A DNA stretch of 34,310 bases from Acidobacteriota bacterium. GTDB taxonomy: Bacteria > Acidobacteriota > Terriglobia > Bryobacterales > Bryobacteraceae. Positions 4,323 to 34,310 of this stretch are shown one piece after another (the stretch's first letter is position 1; the number at the start of each line of letters is the position of its first letter). Location of the stretch: the NCBI GenBank assembly GCA_016178155.1, contig JACOTZ010000013.1, positions 1-34,310 on the forward strand. The letters are read 5' to 3'. Under the pieces are notes generated by a model. That model did not search any database and had not been told where the DNA came from. It worked only from the letters and a program-made list of their open reading frames with translations. Made by a program: the position numbers and the translations under genes.

Positions 4323-4841
4323 ATGAGGGACACCCCCAAGCTCCATCAAGATCCGCTGCTGCGCGAGGAGCTCATCCGCGGCTACCTCAAACGCCGGCTC
4401 GACAGCGCCGCCACCGAGGCTTTCGAAGCGCACTATCTCGCCTGTGATGAATGTTTTGAGGAGCTGCGTACGACCGACCTGATCGTGACGGGTCTCAAGC
4501 GCGCCGCCGTCAACCGGCGGGAGCGCGACGATGTGGTCGTCATCGAGTTTGCCGGCCCCGCGCAGTTGACACGGAACTCCGCCACGGGCCACCAGCTCGA
4601 AGGCCTTCTGCACCAGGGTGACTCGAAAGTGCTGATCGATCTGAGCACCGTCAGCCGGATCGACAGCGCGGGGTTGGGGCTGCTGATGACCTGCTATTCG
4701 CATGTCCTGCGCAATCGTGGAATGCTGAAGGTCCTGCGGCCGAGCGAAGAGGTGCGCCGCATGCTGCGGTTGACGAAGCTCGACGCCGTGGTCGAGGCCT
4801 TCGACGATGAAGCGCAGGCGCTCGAGAGCTTCCTCAACTGA
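4323..4841 (+). CDS. Zinc-finger (anti-sigma type) and STAS domain fusion protein
   Basis: A 172-residue cytoplasmic regulator. Residues 1-60 contain a helical segment with H37-x3-C41-x2-C44 (HYLACDEC), the signature of zinc-associated anti-sigma domains that clamp ECF sigma factors. Residues about 68-172 form a STAS domain of the anti-sigma-factor-antagonist (SpoIIAA/RsbV) type. It contains VLIDLSTVSRIDSAGLGLL, with S115 at the position phosphorylated by partner-switching kinases. Anti-sigma and antagonist functions normally sit on separate proteins; having both in one chain is unusual and has no membrane segment. The gene follows the sigma factor by nine bases, so the two are almost certainly co-transcribed. 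Its final 156 bp is repeated at 5394-5549. Domain calls are firm; the switching mechanism is inference. Confidence 0.85.
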   Translation: MRDTPKLHQDPLLREELIRGYLKRRLDSAATEAFEAHYLACDECFEELRTTDLIVTGLKRAAVNRRERDDVVVIEFAGPAQLTRNSATGHQLEGLLHQGDSKVLIDLSTVSRIDSAGLGLLMTCYSHVLRNRGMLKVLRPSEEVRRMLRLTKLDAVVEAFDDEAQALESFLN

Positions 4842-4847
4842 CGCGGA
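4692..4847 (+). repeat. Direct repeat copy 1 (3' end of the STAS gene)
   Basis: A 156-base segment covering the last ~48 codons and the stop of the zinc-finger/STAS gene. It recurs at 5394-5549 with an offset of 702 bases, no gaps and six mismatches by eye (about 96% identity). After it, copy 1 continues directly into CAGCCCGTGCCGGG, whereas copy 2 reaches that same string about 50 bases later. Confidence 0.95.
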
Positions 4848-5328: not shown

Positions 5329-5393
5329 CAGTTCTGGCGTATTGTGAGATCATCGCCGATACGCTCACGCGCCGTCAAGCCCGAATCGAGACG

Positions 5394-5549
5394 TGCTACT
5401 CGCATGTCCTGCGAAACCGTGGAATGCTGAAGGACCTGCGGCCGAGCAAAGAGGTGCGCCGCATGCCGCGGTTGACGAAGCTCGACGCCGTGGTCGAGGC
5501 CTTCGACGATGAAGCGCAGGCGCTCGAGAGCTTCCTCAACTGACGCGGA
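5394..5549 (+). pseudogene. Truncated duplicate of the STAS gene 3' end (direct repeat copy 2)
   Basis: This segment repeats 4692-4847 at about 96% identity. It keeps the STAS reading frame open to the same TGA (5541-5543), encoding YSHVLRNRGMLKDLRPSKEV and onward to ESFLN. Relative to the intact gene it carries Val-to-Asp, Glu-to-Lys and Leu-to-Pro changes. The conserved DSAGLG motif and everything before it are absent and no start codon or ribosome-binding site is placed to express it, so it is a 3' gene remnant. The changes, including a Pro in a helix, fit relaxed selection. Confidence 0.85.
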
Positions 5550-28532: not shown

Positions 28533-29087
28533 CCAGCCTACCGTAGCGCGGGTGCCGACCTGCTGTAACGGGGTGGTCGAGCTTATACCCCCTTCGCAAA
28601 CCCGCCATCGACGGCGATGGACTAGAGAAGCAGGTGGGAATGGATTACGCGCAAACCGGAAGTTGAGAACCGCGGATCGTGCCGGGCGAAACGGAAGCTG
28701 GCCATGCGCGGACACAACCATGCCGAAGGATAGTCCGGCGGGCTCATCGAGACGATGAACGGCGGCGCGAGGACAGTGTTCTTGCGCCGCTCAAAACCTT
28801 CACCGGATCGGTAGACCCTGATGCCTTCCCCCCGCCCGGCGGAATATTCACTAAAAAGAGAGGCCCCTCTCTCCATTTTCAGGCTGAACCAACACACCCG
28901 GTGGCGTGCCTGAGTGTACATCGAGCATTGCGATTGAGCGTGGCGCAGGAGATGCGGCCGTTCCGCCAGCAGCAGAGCGCGGATACAAAATGCGGCCTGA
29001 TGGCGCCGCGCCGGGCGCATAGCTGTCCGGCACGCCCCGCCACCCGGCTTGCCGCGAATCGCCCTGTGCTATCGTGACGTTTGCAGA
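28533..29087. other. Long intergenic region upstream of the Csm operon
   Basis: This 555-base stretch has no convincing gene: two overlapping open frames of 132 codons on opposite strands lack ribosome-binding sites and recognisable sequence. I searched it by eye for CRISPR repeats and found none. It holds the hairpin at 28857-28872 and, at its right end, a TATCGT box (29070-29075) twelve bases before the cas10 ATG, preceded by TTGCCG at a short 15-base spacing. Confidence 0.5.
28852..28872 (-). terminator. Hairpin with T-tract on the minus strand
   Basis: On the minus strand AGAGAG-GGGC-CTCTCT forms a 6-bp stem with a 4-base loop, followed by TTTTAG, which resembles an intrinsic terminator. 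No minus-strand gene is recognised to its right, so it may end an unrecognised small RNA or antisense transcript, or be a remnant of a lost gene. On the plus strand the following bases (CCATTTTC) are a weaker T-tract. Confidence 0.4.
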
Positions 29088-30590
29088 ATGTCGCTCCAGA
29101 TCTTCTTGCGGGGAAAAATTCTGGGTGTGGAGCAGTTCCTGAGCGCGCTTCCGGAACGCGAGCCGCCTCCGCGCGCCGGTGAGGACGAGCCACCGTCCGG
29201 CCGGGCGCCGCGCGCAGTGGACGACTTCGAGGGACGCGTGGACTGGGCCTCGCTGTTGAGCGAAGTCCTGCCGCGCGCCCTGCTGGCTGAACTCGGCTTG
29301 CCGAAAGTCCTGCTCGGCATGAGCGGAGGACACGAGTTCCTCGCCGTGCTCCCCATGGAGGCCCGCCCGCGCGCGGAAGAGTTTCTCGCAGCGGCCGCGC
29401 GCAATATCGAACGGGTCAGCGGCTCGACGCTGCGGCTGGTCTGGGCGTCTACCGAGAATCTCGGTGACTGGACCATCGTGCGGCGGCGTCTCGGCGACGA
29501 GATGCAAGCGAAGATCGGCGCTCGCCTGCCGGGCGACTCCACCGGCGAGTTCGCACCCTTCTCTACCGCCGCCGCCGGCGATTTCTCCGGCTATTTCCGG
29601 TCGCTCGCGGCCGGGTTGCGCCAGGCGCGCTCAGTCGGCTGGACGGAATCGGAGACCCTGATGGAGGCTGGCGAGGGAAAGCATGCATGGCCCTTGAGCC
29701 GGGACCCGGACGGGATCCCTTTCCCCCGTCATGCGGCGCCCGCCGATGACGACGCCGGGCCCGCGAGTCCTGCTACGCTCGCCGCCAGGGCCCGCGGCCG
29801 CAAGACCTGGGGCATGCTGCGCGGTGAGGTCGACCATATCGAGATTCGATTCCGCCGCGCCCAGTCGGTTGAGGAAACCATCCAGATCTCGACGCTGTAC
29901 AAGCAGTTCTTCGCGGGCGAGCTCGAAGTGCTGTGTTCGATGCCGGAGTCTTGGCGCAAGCTCACCCTGGTATATTCCGGCGGCAATGATTTCGCGGTCT
30001 ACGGCGCTTGGGACGCTCTCATCCCGTTTGCGCGCGAACTGCAACGGCTGTTCCACCGCGTGTCCGAAGAGAGCCTGAAAGATTACCCCGGCGCCGAAGG
30101 CAAGACCATTTCGATGGCGATTGCGCTCGCGCCCGGCCCGGACACGCCCCTGGCGCACGTTTTCGCCGAAGCCGGAGAGAACCTCGAAGTCGCGAAGTCC
30201 GCCGCCAATTGCATTGCCATTTTCGGCCGCACCCTCGAGTGGAAGCATCTCGCCGATGCTGCCGACACCAGAACGACCATGACGCGCATGGTCCTCGAAT
30301 TCGGGGTCCCGCCGCAGTTTCTCTATGAGCTGGCGAACTTCTACCGCGATGCTCCGCAGATCCCCGGCCAGCGGCGGACCCGCCAGGATCGCCTGGAGCG
30401 CCCCTGGCGTTTCCATCGCCGGCTCAATCGCGTCATTCATGGCTCGGCCGCGGCGGCCAGAAGCAGAGACTTCCAGAAGTTGCGCGCCGATCTGATTGCG
30501 GACTTCACAGGCCGGCACGCGGCGCAGGTGCGCCTGCGGCCGGCAGGACGCGTTGCCCTCGAATGGGCGAGGCTCGAAACAGAGACATAA
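29088..30590 (+). CDS. cas10: Cas10/Csm1, reduced form without HD domain and with a GGND palm motif
   Basis: Large subunit of a type III-A CRISPR complex, 500 residues against roughly 750-850 for usual Csm1. It starts at MSLQIFLRGK, after which the first palm domain begins (LLGMSGGHEFLAVLP at about 76-89; LRLVWASTENLGDW). No HD nuclease domain precedes it. The linker has no C-x-x-C pairs, so the usual zinc finger is missing. The second palm (about 239-385) is clear: KTWGMLRGEVDHIEI, QISTLYKQFFAGELE, LVYSGGNDFAVYGAWDALI, ISMAIALAPG, EAGENLEVAKS, CIAIFGRTLEW. The metal-binding D-x-D reads E247-V-D249 and GGDD reads G298-G-N300-D301, so cyclic-oligoadenylate synthesis is probably lost. A helical C-terminal domain follows. 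csm2 starts two bases after the stop. The subunit call is firm; inactivity is inferred. Confidence 0.9.
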   Translation: MSLQIFLRGKILGVEQFLSALPEREPPPRAGEDEPPSGRAPRAVDDFEGRVDWASLLSEVLPRALLAELGLPKVLLGMSGGHEFLAVLPMEARPRAEEFLAAAARNIERVSGSTLRLVWASTENLGDWTIVRRRLGDEMQAKIGARLPGDSTGEFAPFSTAAAGDFSGYFRSLAAGLRQARSVGWTESETLMEAGEGKHAWPLSRDPDGIPFPRHAAPADDDAGPASPATLAARARGRKTWGMLRGEVDHIEIRFRRAQSVEETIQISTLYKQFFAGELEVLCSMPESWRKLTLVYSGGNDFAVYGAWDALIPFARELQRLFHRVSEESLKDYPGAEGKTISMAIALAPGPDTPLAHVFAEAGENLEVAKSAANCIAIFGRTLEWKHLADAADTRTTMTRMVLEFGVPPQFLYELANFYRDAPQIPGQRRTRQDRLERPWRFHRRLNRVIHGSAAAARSRDFQKLRADLIADFTGRHAAQVRLRPAGRVALEWARLETET

Positions 30591-30592
30591 GC

Positions 30593-31108
30593 ATGCAGGA
30601 AACAGAGCAGCAGGGACAGAAACCGGAACAGAAGGGGCCCCGCGGCCCGGAAGGCCGCTCCCCCGGACCCCGCGAGGGGCGCGGCGAACGCCGCCCCGAG
30701 GGCCGCGGCGATCGGGGCGACCGGGGAGAGCGTGATCGCGGCCGGGGCGGCTTCCGTCCCGAGGGCCCGCCGGAGATCGATCTCGACAAGCTCATCTCCG
30801 ATAGCCTGTACCTCGACAACCAGGCACACGGGATCGTCGCCCGCATGCGGGACATGGACTCGGGCACCAAGAGCCAGCTCCGCCGGTTCTATAACGCCGT
30901 CCGCCGCGCCTGCCGCGCCCCCGAGAGCGACCGCCAGCATGAGTTCGTCATGCTGCGCGCGCGCCTGGCCTATACGATCGCGCGCCATTCCCTGCGCAGC
31001 CTCGATACCATGGAAAAGCTGCTGCTGCAGGTGACGCGCAAGAACGACTCGCGGGGCTACGAGCGCTTCCGCGACCTCTTCGAGGCCATCGTGGCCTATA
31101 ACGAATAG
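30593..31108 (+). CDS. csm2: Csm2 small subunit with Arg/Gly-rich N-terminal extension
   Basis: Small helical subunit of the type III-A complex, 171 residues against about 120-140 for common Csm2. Residues 1-~60 form a disordered, low-complexity head rich in R-G and R-x-G steps (GRGERRPEGRGDRGDRGERD) with 13 Arg among the first 60. Residues about 61-171 form the five-helix Csm2 core: IDLDKLISDSLYLDNQAHG, KSQLRRFYNAVRRA, FVMLRARLAYTIARH, LDTMEKLLLQVTRK, YERFRDLFEAIVAYNE. The core lines the inside of the complex and contacts the guide/target RNA. The head resembles RGG-type RNA-binding tails and is not a usual Csm2 feature. The start two bases after cas10 is preferred over an in-frame ATG 30 bases upstream. 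Confidence 0.9.
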   Translation: MQETEQQGQKPEQKGPRGPEGRSPGPREGRGERRPEGRGDRGDRGERDRGRGGFRPEGPPEIDLDKLISDSLYLDNQAHGIVARMRDMDSGTKSQLRRFYNAVRRACRAPESDRQHEFVMLRARLAYTIARHSLRSLDTMEKLLLQVTRKNDSRGYERFRDLFEAIVAYNE

Positions 31109-31149: not shown

Positions 31150-31983
31150 ATGAGCTCGCATACCGCGCAAACTGAACTGAAGTTTCTCGGCAAGCTGATC
31201 CTCGAAGGAGATCTGCACTGCGAAACCGGCCTGCACATCGGCGCCGGCAAGGGCTCGCTCGAGATCGGCGGCGCCGATAATCCGGTCGTGAAAGACGCTT
31301 ACGGGCGCCCCTACATCCCCGGCAGCTCGCTCCGTGGGCGCCTGCGCTCGCTGCTCGAACAGGCGAGCGGCCTTGCCGTGCCCTCCGAGCTGGTGTACAT
31401 CTCCCGGCGCAAGGGCCAGGAGGTCCGCATCCACCAGAGCGACCGTCCGGATGACGAGATCTGCCTGCTCTTCGGCCGCAACCCCGGCCGCATGGAGCGC
31501 ACCAGCGGCGAGGCGCTCGAGAGCGCCCTGGCCACTCCCGCGCGCCTCACCGTGTACGATGCGCCCCTCGGCCTCGATAGCATTACGCCGCAGATGCGCG
31601 AGAACCTCGATGACGAGCTCACCGAAGTGAAGAGCGAGAATGCCGTCGACCGCATCACCTCGCAGGCCAACCCCCGAACCCTCGAGCGCGTCCCGGCCGG
31701 CGCGCGCTTCCGGCTGCGCCTGGTCATGGATGTGCTCTGCGAGGAGGACAAGGAGTTGTTCGCGCGAGTCGTCCAGGGGCTGCGCTTGCTCGAGGACGAC
31801 ACGCTCGGCGGCGGCGGCTCGCGCGGCAACGGCCGCGTCCGCACTTCCGGGTTGCGTCTCGCTTGGCGCAGCCGCGACTTCTACGCCGGAGCGGGATCCG
31901 AATCGGACCTGATCACGGGCGCCGACGTCGCCGGCCTCCAGGCGCTCGCCTCCAGCGCCGAGTTCGCCGGGAAGCTTGCCTGA
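31150..31983 (+). CDS. csm3: Csm3 backbone RAMP subunit, target-RNA nuclease
   Basis: Repeated backbone subunit of the Csm complex, 277 residues (commonly 210-250). It binds the crRNA and cuts target RNA at six-base intervals. The N-terminal RAMP strand is FLGKLILEGDLHCETGLHIGAG. The loop GGADNPVVKD carries D43 in the position of the catalytic Asp of characterised Csm3 proteins (D33 in Streptococcus), so RNA cleavage should be intact. YIPGSSLRGRLRSLLE is the conserved first-helix motif. LGGGGSRGNGRVR (219-231) is the glycine-rich RAMP loop. The last 40 residues extend beyond the core. AAAGGGA lies shortly before the ATG. It sits between csm2 and csm4 in the standard order. Confidence 0.95.
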   Translation: MSSHTAQTELKFLGKLILEGDLHCETGLHIGAGKGSLEIGGADNPVVKDAYGRPYIPGSSLRGRLRSLLEQASGLAVPSELVYISRRKGQEVRIHQSDRPDDEICLLFGRNPGRMERTSGEALESALATPARLTVYDAPLGLDSITPQMRENLDDELTEVKSENAVDRITSQANPRTLERVPAGARFRLRLVMDVLCEEDKELFARVVQGLRLLEDDTLGGGGSRGNGRVRTSGLRLAWRSRDFYAGAGSESDLITGADVAGLQALASSAEFAGKLA

Positions 31984-31986
31984 CAA

Positions 31987-33411
31987 ATGGCCGCCGGGCT
32001 CCTTTTCCGTCTCCGCGCCCAGGGACCGTTCCGGCACGGCACGGGACCTGGCAGCCGCACCGAGCTGACCTTCCGCAGCGATGCCCTCTACTCCGCCGTG
32101 ACGCTGGCCATGCGACAGCTCGGCGTGCTCGAGGAATGGGTGCGGGACACCGTGGCGAATCCCGGGGGCCCCGCGGTTGTATTGACATCGTGCTTCCCCT
32201 ATCACGGCGCCACCCTGTACGTCGCGCCGCCCCGAAGCTTGTGGCCGCCGGCGCCCTCGACGCGCGTGCGCTGGAAGTCGGCGCGCTTTGTGCCCTGGGA
32301 GGTCGTGCCGTCGCTGCTCGCCGGCCGGCCGCTCGAGGAAGATAAGTGGGTCGTCGATCCCGCCAGCGATTGCCTGCTGGCGGCCGAAAAGCGCGGCCTC
32401 GCGGAAGCGCCGTTTCGCACCGCCACCCGCGTGGGCCTGGCCGTCGATCGCCGCAATCATGGCAGCTCCCTGCCTTTCACGATGCATTGCGTCGAGTTCA
32501 AAGACGGAGCCGGCCTCTGGTGCGCTGCGCGTTTTCCGGACGGGCAGATGCGCAACCCCTGGCCAGACCGCCTGGTGGCCGCTTTTCGCCTGCTCGCCGA
32601 TACCGGTCTCGGCGCCGGCCGCTCGCGTGGCTGGGGCCGGTTCGAAATCGAAGAAACGCGGGAGTCGCTGCCCGTCGAGATCGATGGAACCGCGCCGCCG
32701 GCTGTTGCCGGCGAGTGCGCCTGGTGGCTCCTGTCGCTCTACAGCCCACGCGAGCAGGATGGCGTCAACTGGCGTCGCGGCGATTATTCGCTCGCCGTCC
32801 GCGGCGGACGCGTGGAGAGCTCCGCCAATCCCGGCGAGCAGAAGAAGCTCGTGCGCCTGGTGGAGGAAGGATCGGTGATCTTCGCCGCCGGCCGGCCCGT
32901 CGGCGCCGCCCCGGATGTCGCCCCCGAAGGCTTCCCCCATCCCGTCTACCGCAGCGGCTTGGCGTTCGCCGTCGCGCTGCCGCCACGCGGGCAGGCCGTC
33001 CCAGCGCCTCCCGAAGAGCGCCGGCCCATCGCCGAAGTGAGTCGCACCATCGAACCCGCTCCCGCGCCAACGCCCGCCCCGGAGCCCGCCGAGCCCAGCC
33101 CCGCGGAGGAGCCCGCCCCGACAACCCCCGAGCCTGAACCCGCCGTCCCTACCGGGAGCACCGCTGAAACCGGCATCGCGGTCGAGTCCGCTCCGGAAGC
33201 ACAGCCCGCCGGGCCCGAATCTGCGGTCGATGACGCGCCCACACCCGAACCCGTCAGCCCCGAGAAAACCACAGCCGAGCCCGCCGACCCTGAATCCACC
33301 CGCGACGACCAGCCCGCTGACAAGACGGGCACAGCGGAGCCCGAGCAGGGCATCCACCCGCCCCCGCCGGACACAAATGAAGGTGAGCCCGACGACGGAG
33401 GACAGTCGTGA
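31987..33411 (+). CDS. csm4: Csm4 RAMP subunit with long acidic Pro/Ala/Glu-rich tail
   Basis: The RAMP subunit that caps the crRNA 5' handle and holds Cas10. The core is residues 1-~338: LLFRLRAQGPFRHGTG and TFRSDALYSAVTLAMRQLG at the N-terminus, TATRVGLAVDRRNHGSSLPF in the middle, and the glycine-rich loop GLGAGRSRGWGRFEIEE near 203-220. From about P339 to the end at 474 the protein is a low-complexity tail dominated by Pro, Ala, Glu, Asp and Thr (EPAPAPTPAPEPAEPSPAEE), strongly acidic and certainly disordered. Typical Csm4 proteins are about 300 residues and end where the tail begins. It starts three bases after csm3 and its stop overlaps the csm5 start (GTGA). Confidence 0.92.
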   Translation: MAAGLLFRLRAQGPFRHGTGPGSRTELTFRSDALYSAVTLAMRQLGVLEEWVRDTVANPGGPAVVLTSCFPYHGATLYVAPPRSLWPPAPSTRVRWKSARFVPWEVVPSLLAGRPLEEDKWVVDPASDCLLAAEKRGLAEAPFRTATRVGLAVDRRNHGSSLPFTMHCVEFKDGAGLWCAARFPDGQMRNPWPDRLVAAFRLLADTGLGAGRSRGWGRFEIEETRESLPVEIDGTAPPAVAGECAWWLLSLYSPREQDGVNWRRGDYSLAVRGGRVESSANPGEQKKLVRLVEEGSVIFAAGRPVGAAPDVAPEGFPHPVYRSGLAFAVALPPRGQAVPAPPEERRPIAEVSRTIEPAPAPTPAPEPAEPSPAEEPAPTTPEPEPAVPTGSTAETGIAVESAPEAQPAGPESAVDDAPTPEPVSPEKTTAEPADPESTRDDQPADKTGTAEPEQGIHPPPPDTNEGEPDDGGQS

Positions 33412-34310
33412 GATACCGCGTCACAGCCCTGACGCCGCTGCTCGTGGGGGACGGCAGCAAGCTCGCGCCCATCGATTACATGATCTGGCGCGACCAGGTC
33501 AACGTCCTCGACCAGAGGCGCATTTTCCGTCTCCTCGCGAAAGGTCCCCGCCTCGAGGGCTACCTCAACCAGCTCAGAAGAGCTGAGAAACTGGACTTCG
33601 CCTCCTGGGGCGGCTTCGCCCAGAATTTCGCCGACCGTCGCATCCCGTTTGAGCACCCCAGCCTGAGCGCGCATTGGGAGAAGACGCGCGCCGAGCACCT
33701 GTTCATCCCGACCTTTTGCTCCGGCCCTTCAGGCGCGTTCCTGCCGGGCTCAGCCCTGAAGGGCGCGCTGCGCACGGGGTTCGCCTGCAGCCGTTGGAGA
33801 TCCGCCGTCGTGCGGGAGATCGGCGCGCGCATGGAAGCAGAGCGCTTCCTTCGCAAACCGGGCGCCGCGGCCGAGGCGATGACGCTCGGGTCTCCGGGCT
33901 GGGATCCGATGCGCCTGGTGTTGCCCGCTGACTCGGCCGTGGTGCCCGCCTCGGCAATGAAGGTGTATCTCGTCCGAGTGGCGGCCCTGCAGCCGAAGGC
34001 GCCCGGCTTCGAGCTGGCGTGGAAAACGGCGCCCCGCGGTTCCGCTCCGCGTGCCGAGCAGTCGACTCCCGTCTTCGCCGAAATGGCCGCGCCCGGAACG
34101 GAATTTTCAGGCAACTGGGGAGAGAAAGAATTTCTCAAGACGGCGGAAAGCTCGCGCGCGCTGCATTGGGGCGACCATGCCCGCGTCGACCGCATGTTCG
34201 CCGCCGCCAACCAACATGCCGAGGATCTTCTGCGGCTCCAGCAGCAGTACGCCGAACGCGCCGGCCTGCCACGCGTCGGCGAGACGCTCGCCAGTCTCCA
34301 GACTGAGCTG
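33408..34310 (+). CDS. csm5: Csm5 RAMP subunit, truncated by the window end
   Basis: The 301 codons visible encode the N-terminal part of Csm5, the RAMP at the crRNA 3' end that helps recruit trimming nucleases. It starts at GTG overlapping the csm4 stop, with GGAGG six bases upstream. YRVTALTPLLVGDGSKLAPIDYMIW is the Csm5 opening. Further family blocks are VNVLDQRRIFRLLAKGPRLEG and KLDFASWGGFAQNF, and the RAMP helix motif PGSALKGALR is at about 113-122. The frame stays open to the last base. The order cas10-csm2-csm3-csm4-csm5 and the sequence together define type III-A. The rest of csm5, and any cas6, csm6-like gene or CRISPR array, would lie beyond the right edge. Confidence 0.93.
   Translation, partial: MRYRVTALTPLLVGDGSKLAPIDYMIWRDQVNVLDQRRIFRLLAKGPRLEGYLNQLRRAEKLDFASWGGFAQNFADRRIPFEHPSLSAHWEKTRAEHLFIPTFCSGPSGAFLPGSALKGALRTGFACSRWRSAVVREIGARMEAERFLRKPGAAAEAMTLGSPGWDPMRLVLPADSAVVPASAMKVYLVRVAALQPKAPGFELAWKTAPRGSAPRAEQSTPVFAEMAAPGTEFSGNWGEKEFLKTAESSRALHWGDHARVDRMFAAANQHAEDLLRLQQQYAERAGLPRVGETLASLQTEL

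Follow-up and report, generated by a model that had tools for sequence, protein, structure and literature searches.

A short Cas10 lacking an HD domain in a csm operon that appears to be near-core in the Bryobacteraceae

The Cas10 encoded in the csm operon of the Bryobacteraceae is a short protein that lacks both the HD domain and C-x-x-C pairs and that is, by sequence comparison, a vertically inherited, near-core gene of the family. No CRISPR array was seen beside the operon in the loci read, the cyclase motif of Cas10 has been lost in several lineages, and the catalytic Asp of Csm3 has been retained in every copy read. We place at about even the chance that the operon encodes a vertically inherited chromosomal Csm ribonuclease, untied to a neighbouring array, of which RNA cleavage would be the constant output.

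The csm operon and its subunits

The window, that is, the whole stretch of DNA analysed here, is one entire contig of 34,310 bases from an assembly that is 87% complete and divided into 477 contigs. A cas10-csm2-csm3-csm4-csm5 operon, truncated within csm5 where the contig stops, occupies its right end. All five genes of the type III-A (Csm) effector set lie in a single operon, in agreement with the layout proposed in a first-pass annotation of this DNA. The features of the locus are as follows.

29064 to 29077, + strand: promoter-like element CTGTGCTATCGTGA, resembling TCTGTGCTAaAGTgAG found 5' of cas10 in relatives (alignment of 23 upstream regions)
29088 to 30590, + strand: short Cas10/Csm1 of 500 aa with palm 1, palm 2 and a C-terminal helical domain, without HD and without C-x-x-C
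29811 to 30206, + strand: palm 2 domain (Pfam PF22335, E 4.5e-17), residues 242-373 counted from the ATG
29826 to 29834, + strand: E-V-D (E247, V248, D249), D-V-D in most relatives (alignment)
29979 to 29990, + strand: GGND (N300, D301), GGDD in most relatives (alignment)
30593 to 31108, + strand: csm2 (Cas11); N-terminal tail rich in RG
31150 to 31983, + strand: csm3 (Cas7), target-RNA nuclease with the catalytic Asp43 present
31276 to 31278, + strand: codon of Csm3 Asp43, within IGGADNPVVKD; D in 109/109 readable copies
31987 to 33411, + strand: csm4 (Cas5), whose long C-terminal tail shows no consensus in relatives
33408 to 34310, + strand: csm5, cut by the contig end

Across 80 loci including that of the window, csm2 was found in 79, csm3 in 77, csm4 in 71 and csm5 in 59, many of the contigs being short. 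Asp43 of Csm3 corresponds to the Asp responsible for target-RNA cleavage in Csm3 proteins that have been characterised. The 109 readable copies come from 114 loci, 89 of them with an intact and 20 with a broken Cas10 palm, and this residue is the sole catalytic feature present in every copy read. The earlier suggestion that RNA cleavage by Csm3 is the likely remaining output of the complex is consistent with this invariance. The RG-rich tail of Csm2, about 80 residues long (30593-30830 in the window), is conserved in relatives and is, to our knowledge, unusual for a Csm2. The Csm4 tail (33060-33411) is rich in Pro, Glu and Thr.

The surroundings of the operon were also considered. The evidence for CTGTGCTATCGTGA as a promoter element upstream of the window cas10 is no more than suggestive; its distance to the ATG is shorter than that between TCTGTGCTAaAGTgAG and cas10 in relatives. 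A conserved effector gene beside the operon was rejected, as only two neighbours recur in the 80 loci, an ExeA-like ATPase (18/80) and a PpiC-like gene (16/80), both named by eye. A guide ncRNA 5' of cas10 was likewise rejected. The block at -500 to -240 of cas10 that is conserved in about 20 loci (e.g. L009 and L031) is divergent and gene-like, with a codon-like pattern that, on inspection by eye, points to a coding sequence on the opposite strand. Searches for RNA genes 5' of cas10 returned nothing with Rfam (9 loci) or ARAGORN (4 loci). Elsewhere in the window, a 160-nt direct repeat occurs at 4688-4847 and 5390-5549, 702 nt apart and 96% identical, the first copy lying inside a 172-aa ORF that by eye resembles a STAS/anti-sigma antagonist.

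Architecture of the short Cas10

The cas10 frame is open from a TTG at 29049, and its start was placed at the ATG at 29088 by alignment with relatives; counted from the TTG, residues 247 and 300 become 260 and 313. The codons of the four residues singled out by the first-pass annotation lie at 29826-29828 (E247), 29832-29834 (D249), 29985-29987 (N300) and 29988-29990 (D301), and the alignment places them in the E-V-D and GGND motifs as it had claimed. The identity of the protein as a Cas10 is not a matter of chance, given the E-values of its matches to the Pfam palm 2 model (4.5e-17) and to the NCBIfam Csm1 model (6.4e-38, at 131 bits and thus below that model's 170-bit cut-off).

A profile built from 22 relatives first meets an 813-aa Csm1 at residue 272 of the latter (profile position 10). 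No HD part is therefore present, and the protein begins in palm 1, as originally described; the stretch between the matched palm parts is also about 60 residues shorter than in the 813-aa protein. An HD domain missed upstream was rejected, since the two upstream + strand ORFs tested gave no Pfam match and the relatives begin at the same place. An in-frame stop stands at most 15 codons before the Cas10 match in 59/79 relatives; of the remainder, 14/79 have 21-254 further open codons, which lay outside the HD scan, and 6/79 run off the contig. Nor was a separate HD gene seen in the operon, which as far as the contig goes comprises cas10 and csm2-5 only. C-x-x-C pairs were found in none of the 80 aligned copies. 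The missing HD domain and C-x-x-C pairs are accordingly a trait of a family-wide lineage, and their loss is not peculiar to the window locus, on which the first-pass annotation had focused.

An AlphaFold2 model based on 68 sequences (pLDDT 89.8, pTM 0.89) predicts a Csm1 fold with two palms and a C-terminal domain, and supersedes a poor earlier model from 22 sequences (pLDDT 62.7). All 50 PDB matches listed for the newer model are Csm1 or Csm-complex chains, with TM-scores (query) of 0.56-0.76.

Distribution and descent

Relatives were sought in 84,980 species, each represented by one genome; 88 were confirmed and 80 kept. With one exception, the titles of those kept refer to Acidobacteria or to subgroups of them. 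The odd record (L053), titled Bordetella parapertussis, carries an acidobacterial Cas10 and is evidently a mislabelled metagenome bin; it was excluded from alignments and counts, leaving 79 relatives.

The short Cas10 was found in 213/257 genomes of the order, namely in 213/237 Bryobacteraceae and in 0/20 of the rest, and a search for relatives with the same deletion, as the first-pass annotation had advised, thus finds it throughout most of the family. Among high-quality genomes, 142/163 of the order match; as 148 of these 163 are Bryobacteraceae, the family figure is by subtraction 142/148. A phylum-wide draw of 297 genomes gave 11 matches, three of them from Bryobacteraceae (the window's own genome included). 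The other eight matches cover only palm 2 and adjoining residues, at 24-33% identity, and fall in frames of 666-855 codons in six cases and of 365 and 531 codons in two.

Distances between Cas10 sequences follow those between RpoB sequences in 23 genomes (Mantel r 0.87, a value reached by 0/9999 permutations), these genomes being mostly the best Cas10 scorers and excluding that of the window, in which no RpoB was found. Wherever a congener was among these genomes, the nearest Cas10 belonged to the same genus (11/11 cases). Cas10 is the faster-evolving of the two, with a mean distance of 0.40 against 0.15 for RpoB. CRISPR loci are usually patchy and mobile, and vertical, near-universal descent is unusual for them. 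Judged by these comparisons, the short Cas10 of the csm operon is inherited vertically, as a near-core gene of the Bryobacteraceae, a point that the first-pass annotation, made without database searches, could not reach. The single-contig genome G144 holds the short Cas10 together with a second Cas10 match (C1:2125321-2125950), which lies in an 835-codon frame of ordinary length about 7 kb from a Cas1.

Losses of the palm-2 cyclase motif

In the alignment of 68 sequences, D249 is invariant, and D247 and D300 are nearly so; of the first 80 copies, 78 have D at residue 247 and 77 have it at residue 300. Across 114 copies the cyclase motif is intact in 92 and broken in 22. These copies comprise the first 80 and 34 mostly divergent ones (29 from 30 added genomes, five from stretches taken before), and as the added genomes were picked for weak or unusual Cas10 matches, 22/114 is no measure of prevalence; L051 and L205 are moreover one genome counted twice. 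Broken palms occur in 7/7 sampled copies of genus g3, 4/4 of g8, 2/2 of g54 and 2/9 of g23, in one copy each of g24, g47 and g53, and in the window, L047, L067 and L045, the last scored as broken solely for its GVD, since it retains GGDD. A tree from which the motif columns had been left out needs at least 10 changes to account for this pattern; its deep branches are weakly supported and it includes long rows, that of the window among them. The palm has accordingly been lost separately in up to about 10 lineages, the window's being one, with the complex retained. The cyclase was not lost family-wide, and the window represents a secondary loss. Of the earlier claim that both activities of Cas10 are gone, the absence of HD and the degradation of the palm stand for the window, whereas the lineage as a whole keeps the cyclase motif. 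Because 92/114 copies retain it, signalling probably still matters in most species.

A sequencing error at the GGND codon was rejected as the explanation of the window's motif, GGND being present in four other copies and the motif broken in 22/114; some chance of error stays with the reading of GGND and E-V-D, taken as it is from one assembly. Changes at near-invariant positions in the window are concentrated in Cas10 (8/99, rank 2 of 80) and Csm4 (4/35, tied highest of 71), with 0/73 in Csm2, 1/112 in Csm3 and 1/69 in Csm5. The drift in palm 2 extends beyond the motifs to H264T, V269T and F288S (ATG numbering). Signalling has probably been lost in the window's species, to judge from these substitutions.

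Arrays, adaptation genes and signalling effectors

A k-mer scan of the cas10 flanks (up to 10 kb, shorter at contig ends) found no array in the 79 relatives, and the same kind of scan detects real arrays in L118, L180, L188 and L191. None was seen at the window locus, where the view is limited by the contig end. Repeats near cas10 in L004/L084 (one and the same contig), L014, L016, L031, L052 and L079 were considered as arrays and rejected, all being tandem or coding. Those at L004:9587-9935 are five 70-nt tandem copies, 98% alike, that end about 65 nt before cas10, and those in the flanks of L014, L031 and L052 are coding-type tandem repeats of 42-96 nt.

Cas1 was found in 129/257 genomes of the order and 120/237 of the Bryobacteraceae, and not in the 87%-complete assembly of the window's genome. 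The short Cas10 occurs in 114/120 Cas1-positive Bryobacteraceae genomes, in 99/117 Cas1-negative ones (many of them incomplete assemblies), and in 87/103 with neither Cas1 nor a match to an array pattern; this table was compiled by hand and counts Cas10 matches, not whole operons. The array pattern, three repeats ending in TGAAAC and hence covering no other repeat type, matches 59/237 Bryobacteraceae genomes, 41 at least twice and 18 once. Its reversed control matches 15/237, so that the single matches are near chance. At least two matches occur in only 38/120 Cas1-positive genomes, and G030, G143 and G144 have Cas1 and no match. The pattern is thus insensitive and its silence, which extends to the window's genome, says little.

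Signalling effectors were sought with three models (Csx1 CARF, SAVED and Csm6), Can1, Can2, Card1, NucC and CorA lying outside the scan. None of the three matched in the window's genome; as the assembly is 87% complete, an effector or an array may have been missed there. The Csx1_CARF model matched 0/28 chosen Cas1-negative genomes and 2/14 control genomes. The SAVED model matched 3/28 and the Csm6 model 3/28, in the latter case never above the cut-off, and both matched 0/14 controls, which leaves their sensitivity not shown there. One genome without a Cas10 match (G033) is included in the Csx1 and SAVED sets of 28, and is replaced by G166 in the Csm6 set.

Cas6 genes apart from the operon

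Cas6 (PF10040) is present in 199/257 genomes of the order, and a search with the Cas6 of the window's genome matches 203/237 Bryobacteraceae. That genome has one Cas6 (C92:24331-25344, PADLOC E 7e-76), which lies apart from the csm operon. Its neighbours are a 3-keto-disaccharide hydrolase and a gene of transglutaminase type, and the 13 kb read there contain no array. By a hand count, 33/40 Cas6 stretches of at least 10 kb have neither Cas1 nor an array, in a set that was partly picked as likely orphans and in which several stretches end at contig ends. Among Cas1-negative genomes, 85 have both Cas10 and Cas6, 14 Cas10 only, 12 Cas6 only and six neither (Fisher p 0.08). The association is weak, and a tie of the orphan Cas6 to the Csm operon is no more than plausible.

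The orphan Cas6 proteins were tried as a clean separate clade, which was rejected, as they are intermixed with type I Cas6. The same clade is found in type I loci, namely L183, where matches to Cas3, Cas8a, Cas7 and Cas5a make the locus I-A-like, and L180, which is I-D-like by its matches to Cas7d and Cas3d. Because the clade includes type I Cas6 genes, the orphan genes may be type I leftovers. In the Cas1-linked loci L180, L181, L183 and L198, Cas6 groups with the orphan Cas6, which hints at an exchange of Cas6 between systems.

Possible roles of the complex

The HD domain was not found in the lineage, and the cyclase motif has been lost up to about ten times, whereas no copy read lacks the Csm3 Asp. 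This pattern is most simply explained by an RNA-guided RNA cutter in which signalling is optional. In such a chromosomal ribonuclease, Cas10, cut down to two palms and a C-terminal domain, would serve mainly as the structural foot of an assembled complex, and Csm3 would cut RNA paired with the guide. Guides would probably be loaded in trans, from RNA processed by the Cas6 encoded elsewhere in the genome; they may derive from arrays in genomes that possess any, and otherwise from some endogenous RNA. Signalling would be an optional addition, the cyclase motif having degenerated, with the complex kept, in the window's species as well as in up to about nine further lineages.

A more specific version is put forward tentatively, as possible and short of probable. 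The Csm complex and the stand-alone Cas6 could form a housekeeping or regulatory ribonucleoprotein, vertically inherited and family-wide, that uses endogenous, non-CRISPR RNAs as guides and acts by RNA cleavage alone, DNA cleavage having been lost by all members and signalling repeatedly. A core-gene-like Csm complex beside which no array was found makes a strong candidate for the recruitment of a CRISPR effector to a cellular role, and allows one to test which RNA such a complex carries without an array. The separate palm losses offer a natural experiment in which cOA signalling is parted from RNA cleavage.

Ordinary antiviral III-A immunity, with guides supplied in trans from type I or unlinked arrays and cOA acting through unrecognised effectors, seems rather unlikely, though it deserves serious weight; the window's species, its Cas10 partly degenerate, would then still be immune through RNA cleavage. 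This explanation can draw on the array pattern, insensitive as it is, on the Cas1 genes of half the family (120/237) and on the 92/114 intact cyclase motifs. The use of crRNA in trans has also been proposed for III-G, in the part of the 2025 classification available to us (PMC12669027). Against it, Cas10 is nearly as common without Cas1 as with it, matches to the three effector models are few, and vertical, near-universal descent is not what such loci usually display. A binding-only complex, in which pairing represses or protects transcripts and any cleavage by Csm3 is incidental, is improbable. It would accommodate the absence of HD from the lineage and the loss of the palm motif in up to about 10 lineages with the operon kept, but the Csm3 Asp, invariant in 109/109 copies, is not needed for pure binding.

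It is very improbable that the window cyclase, with its E-V-D and GGND, retains activity. Two of its acidic residues, D249 and D301, remain, and variants such as AGDD, GGED, GGDE and more occur in loci with effectors (PMC11229360, seen in part). GGND is nevertheless absent from the variants quoted in that portion of PMC11229360, two acidic positions are changed together with the three further palm-2 residues, and the three effector models found no match in the window's genome. A decaying relic, as proposed for three cas genes of Solibacter usitatus Ellin6076 that were read as left over for want of a CRISPR (PMC3174227, seen in part), could explain the 22/114 broken palm motifs but is scarcely credible given the open frames and conserved residues family-wide, the vertical descent, and the nearly unchanged invariant positions of the window's Csm2, Csm3 and Csm5.

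Comparison with known systems

The Bryobacteraceae operon shares with type III-A Csm systems (Cas10/Csm1 equivalog TIGR02578) the gene set cas10-csm2-csm3-csm4-csm5, the folds and the catalytic Asp of Csm3. It differs from them in a Cas10 that has neither HD nor C-x-x-C and scores under the NCBIfam cut-off, in that no array, cas1 or cas6 was seen beside it, and in its descent as a near-core vertical gene. The absence of HD is not rare by itself, as the domain is present in 65% of III-A loci and 39% of type III loci, the cyclase being present in 92%, according to the sections available of PMC11229360. In the 2025 classification, as far as its text was accessible, about 97% of Cas10 proteins are predicted to be active, and Acidobacteria find no mention in that portion of the main text (PMC12669027). 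Antarctic acidobacterial contigs carry type III genes in other layouts and with arrays, in the part consulted of PMC11742911. Among the papers listed by searches of open-access PMC, which includes preprints only if deposited there, none was seen to describe a Csm complex that is conserved in Bryobacteraceae and lacks an array.

Solibacter usitatus Ellin6076 belongs to the same group of bacteria. Its three cas genes (Acid_0892, Acid_0893 and Acid_0895) lie in a genome in which no CRISPR was found and were read as left over (PMC3174227, seen in part); they were compared here by description, and count as an independent case in favour of a complex untied to an array. If they represent the same operon, the data on the window's family argue against that reading.

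A small Cas10-related protein is also known from mCpol/Panoptes, where, by the excerpt consulted, mCpol acts constitutively as a cyclase and has 2TMbeta as its partner (PMC12657230); the protein described here instead has two palms and a C-terminal domain and is encoded in a csm operon. Types III-C, III-F and III-H resemble the window in their degraded cyclase motif. They differ in their HD, which can be recognised in half of III-C and in III-F generally and which in III-H appears to be active, as stated in the parts seen of PMC11229360 and PMC12669027; no HD was found in the Bryobacteraceae Cas10. Type III-G of the Sulfolobales, as described in the accessible text of PMC12669027, has no array at the locus, no adaptation genes and an inactive palm, and the window is likewise without an array found, without adaptation genes and with a degraded palm. 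The remaining features are reversed: III-G has an apparently active HD and a Cas7 whose Asp is not conserved (PMC12669027), whereas the Bryobacteraceae complex is without HD and its Cas7 Asp is invariant.
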